Assembly (NCBI GenBank): GCA_903825435.1 | Contig: CAIKAP010000103.1 | Coordinates: forward strand, 1-47,947 | Length of the DNA: 47,947 nt | Direction of reading: 5' to 3' | Source: an uncultured Verrucomicrobiota bacterium | GTDB taxonomy: Bacteria; Verrucomicrobiota; Verrucomicrobiia; Palsa-1439 | Shown here: positions 27,257 through 30,375 of the stretch, piece by piece | Layout: each line of letters starts with the position of its first letter | Numbering within the stretch: the first letter of the stretch is position 1 | Position numbers and translations under genes: made by a program | Notes under the pieces: model-generated | Seen by the model: the letters and a program-made list of their open reading frames with translations, nothing else | The model's database searches: none | What the model was told of the DNA's origin: nothing

Positions 27257-27465
27257 TGCGTCACTGCCTCGTGAATTTCCTTCCACTCCTGATACTCGCT
27301 CTCTTCCCATTTCGTAATCGCAAACCCGGCATGTACCAAAACGTAATCGCCGAGCCGCGGCTCCTCGATCAACGACACGTCCACCTCGCGCAACGCGCCC
27401 TCGACGGAAATCGTCGCCGTCGTTCCGTTCAACTCAACTATCTTCGCTGGCACAGCTAAACACAT
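27253..27465 (-). CDS. hypC: Hydrogenase maturation chaperone HypC
   Basis: A 70-residue OB-fold chaperone that carries the Fe(CN)2CO moiety between HypD and the large-subunit precursor. It begins MCLAVPAKIVEL, with the essential Cys2, and contains GDYVLVHAGFAI. It overlaps hypF by 10 bases upstream and hypD by 4 bases downstream. A single hypC serves two large subunits here, unless a second copy lies elsewhere. Confidence 0.96.
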   Translation of the reverse strand: MCLAVPAKIVELNGTTATISVEGALREVDVSLIEEPRLGDYVLVHAGFAITKWEESEYQEWKEIHEAVTQ

Positions 27466-29654
27466 CGTAATTTCATCCTCTCGGCAGCAACCGCCGCCTG
27501 ACCGAGCGACAGTCCGCCGTCATTCGGCGGCACGAGCGTATTCGTGAACACCTCAAACCCGCGCTCGCGCAACGCCGCCGTCGCGCGCGACAAAATCCAC
27601 GCATTCTGAAACACGCCGCCCGACAGCGCCACGCGTTTCAATCCGCGTTCCTCGCGCACCGACTCGCACACCCGCACGATACCGGCGACGATGGTATTCT
27701 GAAATCGCGCCGCAGCGACGCCGACATTTTGCCGTTCTGCAATCAGCGAGTGAATCGCACGGCCGAAATCCAAAACATCGCCGCGCAAATCAAACGGATA
27801 ATGTCCGGTTACCGACGAATCTGCCGCCGCTTCGAGTCGAATCGCCGCCTGCGCTTCGTACGACGCCATGTCACACAAGCCAAGCATCGCCGCCGCCGCA
27901 TCGAACAAACGTCCCGCGCTTGATGTCAGCGGCGAATTAAAACCGGTACGAATCATATTCAATACCGGTTCCCGTAGGGGCGACGCATGCGTCGCCCCTA
28001 CCGGCAACTCTTCGCTTATCAACACGCTCGCTGCCATGCGCCACGGCTCCTCGATGGCTTTCTCGCCACCGGGCAACCGGTATTGTTTGAAATGCGCGAC
28101 ACGTACAAAATCCGCGCGAGTTACCACGAGAAATTCTCCACCCCAAACTGTGCCGTCGGTTCCGTAACCAGTTCCGTCGAGCGCAACGCCGATGACTTCA
28201 CCGCGAAGATTATGTTCCGCCATCACGCTCGCGATGTGCGCGTGATGATGTTGGACGGCGATCAACGTCGCCGATTGTTCCTGCGCCCACCGGGTCGAGC
28301 GATACGCCGGATGTAAATCGTGTGCGACTACTACCGGTTCAACGCGCATTAAACGTTGCCACTCGGCAATCTCGCGCTCGAAATACTCGACGGTTTTGAA
28401 CTCTTTCAAATCGCCGATGTGCTGCGAGAGAAACGCCCAGCCGTCGCGTGCGAGACAAAACGTATTCTTCATCTCGCCGCCGACGGCGAGAATTTGCGCG
28501 CAATCATCGGCGAACCGGATCGCGTTCGGCGCGAAGCCACGGGCGCGACGGAAAAACTGTCGCTGACCGTTCACGATGCGAACAACGGAATCATCGCATT
28601 TGTGAACGATGGCGCGATTGTGTGTCAGCAAAGCGTCGGCGACGTGAGGCAGTTCGGCATCGTCGCTGGCAATCGGTTCTTCGGCGAGATTACCGGAAGT
28701 CATCACCAGTGCCTTGAAGTGTTGCATCAACAAGTGATGAATCGGCGTGTACGGCAGAAATACGCCGAGCGTCGGTGAATCCGGCGAGAGCTTTTCAAAG
28801 CCGGAACATTTCCGGAACAAAATCACAATCGGTCGTGCGACGGAAAGCAGTTCGGCTTCCTCGGCTTCGCTGACTTCGCAGTGACGTTTCACCGTCTCGA
28901 TGTCGCGGAACATGACAGCGAACGGTTTGTGCAGACGATGTTTTCGTTCGCGCAATGTTCCGGCGGCCTCCGGAACACAGGCAAGATGAAATCCGCCGAG
29001 GCTTTTAATGGCGACGATGTGACCGGAGCGAAGCAAATCAACCGCAGTTTGTAGGGGCGACGCATGCGTCGCCCCTACGAGCGCGTGAAACTGCAAAGAC
29101 GGCCCGCATTTTTCGCACGCGTCTGGTTGTGCGTGAAAGCGGCGGTCGGTCGGCTCGTGATATTCGTAGTCGCAGGCCGGACACATTTTGAAATTGGCCA
29201 TGCTGGTATTGCTACGGTCGTAAGGTAAATCGCGGATGATGGTGAAGCGCGGGCCGCAGTTGGTGCAGTTGATGAACGGATAATTGTGTCGGCGATCTTG
29301 CGGGTCGTTCAACTCGCGGAGACAATCATCGCAGGCGGCGAGGTCGGGCGAGATGTGAACTTCTGCGTTGCCGGCTTGCTCGGACTCGACAACGGCAAAT
29401 TGTTGGTCGCCGCACAATTTTACCGGATGAATCTCGACGCCGGTAATGACGGCTTGGCGCGGCGGTTCGTTTTGGAGATGCGCGAAGAATGCGCTGACGT
29501 TGGTGTCGTCGCCTTCGACTTCGAGGAGGACGCCTTGCGGATCGTTGCGGACGAAACCGGTAAGACCGCACTCGATGGCGTAGCGATAAACGGTCGGGCG
29601 GAAACCAACGCCTTGGACGCGGCCAACAATCTTCGCCTGGACCCGGGTTTTCAC
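27456..29654 (-). CDS. hypF: Carbamoyltransferase HypF, carrying two in-frame palindromic inserts
   Basis: HypF transfers the carbamoyl group of carbamoyl phosphate to the C-terminal Cys of HypE. Domains in order over 732 residues: acylphosphatase (GRVQGVGFRPTVYRYA, about 10-95), two zinc fingers (CDDCLRELNDP, CTNCGPRFTI, CPACDYEYHEP, CEKCGPSLQF, to about 190), YrdC-like (SGHIVAIKSLGGFHLAC), and Kae1-like with HHHAHIASVMAEH and VALDGTGYGTDG. The start is GTG at 29654, immediately after the hypB stop; the longer frame overlaps hypB. Two copies of a 28-bp palindrome encode VGATHASPL, at about residues 192-202 (between zinc finger and YrdC) and 551-561 (inside Kae1). Both fall in loops and keep the frame, so the protein is probably functional. 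Confidence 0.95.
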   Translation of the reverse strand: MKTRVQAKIVGRVQGVGFRPTVYRYAIECGLTGFVRNDPQGVLLEVEGDDTNVSAFFAHLQNEPPRQAVITGVEIHPVKLCGDQQFAVVESEQAGNAEVHISPDLAACDDCLRELNDPQDRRHNYPFINCTNCGPRFTIIRDLPYDRSNTSMANFKMCPACDYEYHEPTDRRFHAQPDACEKCGPSLQFHALVGATHASPLQTAVDLLRSGHIVAIKSLGGFHLACVPEAAGTLRERKHRLHKPFAVMFRDIETVKRHCEVSEAEEAELLSVARPIVILFRKCSGFEKLSPDSPTLGVFLPYTPIHHLLMQHFKALVMTSGNLAEEPIASDDAELPHVADALLTHNRAIVHKCDDSVVRIVNGQRQFFRRARGFAPNAIRFADDCAQILAVGGEMKNTFCLARDGWAFLSQHIGDLKEFKTVEYFEREIAEWQRLMRVEPVVVAHDLHPAYRSTRWAQEQSATLIAVQHHHAHIASVMAEHNLRGEVIGVALDGTGYGTDGTVWGGEFLVVTRADFVRVAHFKQYRLPGGEKAIEEPWRMAASVLISEELPVGATHASPLREPVLNMIRTGFNSPLTSSAGRLFDAAAAMLGLCDMASYEAQAAIRLEAAADSSVTGHYPFDLRGDVLDFGRAIHSLIAERQNVGVAAARFQNTIVAGIVRVCESVREERGLKRVALSGGVFQNAWILSRATAALRERGFEVFTNTLVPPNDGGLSLGQAAVAAERMKLRCV
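27974..28001. repeat. 28-bp perfect palindrome inside hypF (copy 1)
   Basis: The half-site GTAGGGGCGACGCA is followed directly by its reverse complement. It is identical to the copy at 29051-29078 and, read in the hypF frame, yields the same GATHASPL residues. It lies in the Kae1-like domain between helices of a segment that is variable in the family. It looks like an invading palindromic element tolerated in a protein loop. Confidence 0.9.
29051..29078. repeat. 28-bp perfect palindrome inside hypF (copy 2)
   Basis: Identical to 27974-28001 and in the same hypF reading frame. It sits in the linker between the second zinc finger and the YrdC-like domain. The flanking bases differ from those of the other copy, so only the palindrome itself is shared. 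Confidence 0.9.
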
Positions 29655-29655
29655 G

Positions 29656-30375
29656 TCAGTGTTTGTGTGGATGCGAGTGAGGCGCGACGCCTTCGACGTG
29701 CGAGTGCGTGTGCGGCTGGATGTTGATCTCGCCACCGGCGACGTGTTCGAGCCAATGCGTCCACTCACTGAGTCCTTCACCGGTGCGACAGGAGAGTTTG
29801 AAGATTGGAGCTGTCGCATTGAGTTTGCGGAAGTCGGTCTCGAACTTTGCGTAATCGAAATCGGTGTACGGCAATAAATCTATTTTATTTAAGACGAGCG
29901 CCGCGATTTCGTGGAAGAGGAGCGGATATTTAGCCGGTTTGTCGTGGCCTTCGGTGACGCTGAGAATTCCAACTTTCGCGTTTTCGCCGAGATCAAATTC
30001 GGCGGGACAGGCGATGTTGCCGACGTTTTCGATGATGAGAAGATTGATAGCATCGAGGTTGAGTTCGCCGAGGCCGCGCTGGATAAGCGTGGCTTCGAGA
30101 TGACATGCGCCGCCGGTGAGGAGTTGAATGACCGGCACGCCGAGTTTTTCGATGCGCTCGGCGTCGCGTGTTGTCGCGATATCGCCTTCGAGCACGCCGA
30201 TTTTGTGGCGCGATTTTAGGAGCGGAATGGTGCGTTCGAGCAACGAGGTCTTACCGGCGCCGGGAGAACTGATGACGTTGATCGCGGTGATGCGCTTGGC
30301 CGCCAGTTGCTGGCGGATGCGCGCCGCCATCTGGTCGTTCGCCTCCAGGACGTTCTTGAGAACCTTGATGTTCAT
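29656..30375 (-). CDS. hypB: Hydrogenase nickel-incorporation GTPase HypB
   Basis: HypB is the GTPase that, with HypA, delivers nickel to the large subunit. The 239-residue protein has P-loop SSPGAGKTSLLE, the metal-site Cys/His in TGGACHLEA, Walker B-like LLIIENVGNIACP, and the guanine motif NKIDLLPY. The nickel-storing His-rich stretch is at the C-terminus (PHTHSHVEGVAPHSHPHKH) rather than at the more usual N-terminus. It is 7 bp downstream of the mvhA-type gene. The start at 30375 (MNIKVLKNVLEAND) is the family start. Confidence 0.97.
   Translation of the reverse strand: MNIKVLKNVLEANDQMAARIRQQLAAKRITAINVISSPGAGKTSLLERTIPLLKSRHKIGVLEGDIATTRDAERIEKLGVPVIQLLTGGACHLEATLIQRGLGELNLDAINLLIIENVGNIACPAEFDLGENAKVGILSVTEGHDKPAKYPLLFHEIAALVLNKIDLLPYTDFDYAKFETDFRKLNATAPIFKLSCRTGEGLSEWTHWLEHVAGGEINIQPHTHSHVEGVAPHSHPHKH

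Follow-up and report, generated by a model that had tools for sequence, protein, structure and literature searches.

The hydrogenase gene hypF of an uncultured Verrucomicrobiota bacterium carries two identical copies of a perfect 28-bp palindrome, GTAGGGGCGACGCATGCGTCGCCCCTAC. With a probability of about 0.85, we interpret it as a double-foot GTAG REP; repeats of this type are associated with the HUH/Y1 transposases (TnpAREP, or RAYT) of subclass 2.4. Both copies were located by exact sequence match in the window, the 47,947-nucleotide stretch of DNA analyzed here, at positions 27974-28001 (copy 1) and 29051-29078 (copy 2). A preliminary description had placed two perfect palindromes there in one hypF frame, and the coordinates, the sequence, and the frame are all borne out.

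The palindrome and its host gene

The perfect palindrome GTAGGGGC..GCCCCTAC bears GTAG at its 5′ foot and the complementary CTAC at its 3′ foot. In the 28-mer, both strands carry the GTAG foot, which is base-paired with CTAC, and the bottom of the stem is a G-C pair. This GTAG..CTAC double foot fits the definition of the subclass 2.4 REPs (PMC6006769), and the CGTC foot is absent from the 28-mer. The single-stranded 28-mer is predicted to form a hairpin of -14.6 kcal/mol, as compared to a mean of -4.0 kcal/mol for its shuffled versions (z -7). Since the element is its own reverse complement, its orientation is irrelevant and only the phase counts. Two phases are open, encoding VGATHASPL and RGDACVAPT, while the third stops at the TAG of GTAG. 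Both hypF copies are read as GTA GGG GCG ACG CAT GCG TCG CCC CTA; the peptide described earlier, GATHASPL, is thus encoded by both, its full reading being VGATHASPL. A literature search did not find the peptide GATHASP. The flanks of the two copies are unrelated, as had been reported, with similarity extending no further than one base.

The host gene (27456-29819, minus strand) encodes a carbamoyltransferase HypF of 787 residues, which matches TIGR00143 with 785.7 bits (cut-off 466.1; E 4.1e-236). Copy 1 corresponds to residues 607-615 and copy 2 to residues 248-256. The AlphaFold2 model (mean pLDDT 71.6) places both sites in loops, in agreement with the original proposal: the loop at about 247-254 joins a strand to a helix, and the loop 603-615 joins two helices. 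Neither site has related residues in the solved homologues 3vth and 4g9i. We compared 20 HypF homologues encoded by other genomes, one of which spans the first site alone, and VGATHASPL occurs in none of them, not even in the same-genus homologue, which is 80% identical. The alignment thus reveals relatives without either insert, and no instance of the same residues encoded by non-palindromic DNA. A 139-nt inverted repeat, 99% identical, is located close to both contig ends (54-192 and 47809-47947); it probably represents a dispersed repeat that broke the assembly.

Further copies in the genome and the lengths of the host loops

The exact 28-mer occurs at five sites in the 3.43-Mb genome, while the reversed control occurs at none, which excludes chance; a single looser variant is present on contig C61. 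Two of the exact copies are in frame within one double-length DNA-repair protein, a UvrA of 1811 residues (contig C109), at residues 202-210 and 1517-1525, and the fifth, on contig C97, is apparently intergenic. All four coding copies share the VGATHASPL phase. Four copies within two genes are unexpected: under a simple model of random placement, five landings would hit two genes twice each with p ~2e-6, a probability that tolerance of particular loops would raise. The UvrA proteins of six family members have no palindrome copies, and no copy of the 28-mer was found in nine further family genomes, with up to two mismatches allowed. The same-genus genome contains one degenerate copy, which provides the TAG stop of a gene that we take, from its own sequence, to be valyl-tRNA synthetase-like. 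In that genome, the double-length uvrA was matched as two pieces about 3 kb apart on one contig, as if it were interrupted or split. The absence in relatives, the further genome copies, and the two in-frame copies in uvrA bear out the original idea of a dispersed, protein-invading palindromic repeat.

Does the palindrome lengthen the loops that it occupies? We measured the loops between conserved anchors and expressed net changes relative to the commonest family lengths. HypF site 1, the position of copy 2, spans 81 residues (82 in five family members, 85 and 94 in two, and 71 in the same-genus protein), and HypF site 2 spans 35 (31 in four relatives, 37 in two, and 40 in the same genus). UvrA site 1 spans 20 residues (19 in five relatives and 17 in one), and UvrA site 2 spans 31 (24-25 in three, 11 in two, and 34 in one). 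The net changes are therefore about -1 and +4 residues in HypF and about +1 and +6 in UvrA, different from the +9 to +10 expected of a clean addition of 28-30 bp. All four sites fall where the segment length varies among relatives, and an element of 28 bp would shift the frame unless the length were adjusted in some way. These lengths would fit a replacement of loop codons, and would equally fit an insertion followed by trimming. The earlier term “inserted” thus seems apt for the origin of the palindrome DNA, and not for a net lengthening of the loops, which are not nine or ten residues longer than those of the homologues.

Other repeats were observed at the same loops in relatives. In one family genome (G002), HypF site 1 holds a different repeat, ATTCTGAGCGAAGCGAAGAATC..CTTCGCCTCGCTCAGGGTGACA, which encodes ILSEAKNRSRSTTETLRLAQGDS; in another (G005), the uvrA loop corresponding to site 2 holds an in-frame GTAGGGTCGGACCGCC..GCGCCCTAC element (GTAGGG..CCCTAC).

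Spread across phyla and the link to RAYT transposases

Three of the exact copies in this genome lie outside the window. Across species-representative genomes from about 20 phyla, the search revealed at least 116 stretches that contain the exact 28-mer. Among the listed matches, the record titles name Chloroflexi, Gammaproteobacteria, Desulfuromonadales, Glassbacteria, Nitrospinota, Kuenenia, Armatimonadetes, Acidobacteria, Gemmatimonadetes, Omnitrophota, Latescibacterota, Binatota, Methylomirabilota, Bacteroidales, and others; these are mostly metagenome bins, in which individual taxon assignments may be wrong. Near copies number up to 67 in other genomes. Among the mechanically called ORFs of at least 180 residues that cover a copy, those of the present genome included, 26 use the VGATHASPL phase and 10 the RGDACVAPT phase. 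Pfam matches support a genuine host protein for seven of the ten ORFs tested, including a leucyl-tRNA synthetase. Two viral contigs (copies at 1225-1252 and 1965-1992) carry the exact 28-mer with shared flanks between phage-like ORFs, and phages might carry the repeat between hosts.

We also looked for rules of landing. The base preceding GTAG is mildly biased toward T (38%) and C (28%), and a strong target motif was accordingly rejected. Target-site duplication was rejected as well, as flank identity over 120 copies is at most 4 nt, the same as in the controls. Only 6 of the 120 copies lie exactly at the center of a longer inverted repeat, and a general landing in pre-existing hairpins was also discarded. 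Four of these six belong to one Dehalococcoidia genome, where the inverted repeats around them are unrelated to one another and have arms of 10-18 bp.

The 28-mer is also linked to Y1/HUH transposases. Five of its loci are themselves transposase genes (Pfam Y1_Tnp) with the palindrome directly past the HUH motif, and in eight genomes a RAYT gene holds the exact 28-mer in frame in the stretch that separates the HUH motif from the Tyr motif; seven of these genes use the same phase, and the eighth uses RGDACVAPT. When palindromes with arms of at least 8 bp were counted in the 56 distinct RAYTs that have both motifs, 47 had one in the HUH–Tyr loop. The 200 bp upstream contained such a palindrome in only 3 of the RAYTs and the 110 bp downstream in only 1, and it appeared in 2.9% of the loops after codon shuffling. 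The loop cores vary, with a GTAG or CTAC edge in at least 30, and RAYTs from the phylum of the window, picked regardless of palindromes, likewise have the feature. Many RAYTs have two hairpins in this loop, their outer edges often being GTAG and CTAC, an arrangement like that of a REPIN encoded inside the transposase. In a tree built largely without the loop, nine rows represent RAYTs that have the exact core, one of them with altered feet; they cluster, requiring 2 changes, as compared to 8.5 for shuffled labels. The provisional assignment of the RAYTs to subclass 2.4 rests on the internal REP, a feature that Quentin et al. call unique to that subclass (PMC6006769), together with Pfam Y1_Tnp.

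Which genomes possess such a transposase? A profile built from the five transposase loci and one further RAYT detected RAYT relatives in 33 of 49 other 28-mer-bearing genomes (E ≤1e-12), the six source genomes of the profile being among the 33. The same search did not find a subclass 2.4-type RAYT in the window's genome, which is 96% complete and fragmented; its two Y1_Tnp genes are both of other types. When 289 genomes were sampled from the phylum, no association was seen between the GTAGGGGC..GCCCCTAC motif and a subclass 2.4-type RAYT (2/14 versus 63/275). As for a match between the core carried by a RAYT and the core dispersed in its genome, the evidence is suggestive for the GGGTTTSAAACCC core alone: both genomes with this core in a RAYT are among the 5 of 19 that have many copies (p ~0.06). 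The genomes with the exact core were chosen for having it and so provide no test of this match.

The siting within RAYT genes bears on two other identities of the palindrome, both of which we judge very improbable. A relative of the Rickettsia palindromic elements, or a MITE of a DDE transposase, would share the in-frame insertion into protein genes known for the former (PMC3733652), and in this behavior the likeness drawn in the preliminary description is sound. Membership is another matter, since the feet are GTAG/CTAC, as compared to the CGTC motif of RPE-4 and RPE-6, which are CGTC-type repeats (PMC3733652); moreover, the copies have no target-site duplication, and they occur systematically within Y1 HUH transposase genes. 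Equally improbable is a functional VGATHASPL motif under protein-level selection in HypF and UvrA. The single phase of the four coding copies, and its prevalence among the long ORFs, would agree with such a motif, whereas the DNA is identical base for base with no synonymous change, the RGDACVAPT phase is also used, even within a RAYT, and relatives have unrelated residues at these sites.

Spread by copying is a stronger competitor, which we nevertheless consider unlikely. According to this explanation, gene conversion or template switching between hairpin-forming sequences at stalled replication forks replaces loop codons by the palindrome, and no transposase is active in this genome. It would account for the small loop changes, the pairing of copies in two genes, the other repeats at the same loops in relatives, and the failure to find a matching-type RAYT. 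On the other hand, the unrelated flanks leave no homology beyond the palindrome to prime conversion, the systematic siting of the same palindromes in RAYT genes suggests a relation to the transposase, and the loop lengths could also result from insertion followed by trimming.

A proposed model for the spread of the repeat, and known systems

We therefore favor a double-foot GTAG REP, a non-autonomous repeat for which we propose the following course. Either strand alone would form a hairpin with GTAG as the 5′ foot and CTAC as the 3′ foot. The cognate RAYT probably recognizes the foot and the hairpin in single-stranded DNA and cleaves, and it would then join the cut piece elsewhere without target duplication. 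Corneloup et al. (2021, PMC8266576) review the cutting of single-stranded REPs by TnpAREP in vitro and its requirement for GTAG. The surviving copies would be those in a tolerant protein loop and an open phase, as in hypF and uvrA, where the loss of neighboring loop codons may have restored the frame and the loop length. We infer that a RAYT mobilized the repeat in this lineage and is absent or has been lost from the genome. The description of the element as active or once-active draws weak support from the identity of the copies, and is weakened by their number, only five, and by the search of this genome, in which no matching RAYT was found.

A bolder reading, which we consider rather unlikely as a whole, is that the spread of REPs into genes is substitutive and not additive. 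Loop codons would be overwritten with little net change in length, and certain loops—the HypF linker and those of UvrA—would be recurrent landing places for repeat families that differ from lineage to lineage, with two hits per gene. The paired hits would perhaps arise by local single-strand hopping, or by template switching at the same replication fork.

The present case is a base-perfect REP inside the proteins of a genome with no recognizable RAYT of the matching type. A single 28-mer common to about 20 phyla and borne inside transposase genes is a tractable substrate for studying how REPs move, and whether REPs move by transposition, by conversion, or by overwriting is a question informed by the double hits in uvrA, here and in the literature on Opitutus terrae, and by loop lengths that stay almost the same. 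For annotation, VGATHASPL and RGDACVAPT should be regarded as REP-encoded peptides and not as conserved protein motifs.

Neither intragenic REPs nor REPs located in RAYT genes of subclass 2.4 are new: the former were published by Di Nocera et al. (2013) and the latter by Quentin et al. (2018). The Rickettsia palindromic elements are likewise palindromic repeats translated in frame within unrelated proteins, and they differ in that RPE-1 is longer and the GTAG double foot is absent. Di Nocera et al. (PMC3733652) described intragenic GTAG REPs that are translated in frame, two per gene; in Opitutus terrae, each of the two uvrA genes has a double insertion. They also described TAG stop codons contributed by the termini of REPs. 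At 28 bp and five exact copies, our palindrome falls within the 20-40 bp dispersed, multicopy palindromes of that GTAG super-family, whereas the GTAG tag defined there is unpaired and at one end, and here it is paired with CTAC and present on both strands. The subclass 2.4 double-foot REPs are found within tnpAREP genes, in frame, between the HuH and Y motifs (PMC6006769). The copies described here differ from these in lying in hypF and uvrA, in numbering only five exact copies, and in belonging to a genome in which no tnpAREP of that kind was found; what the 28-mer shares with them is the GTAG/CTAC feet and the siting within RAYT genes.
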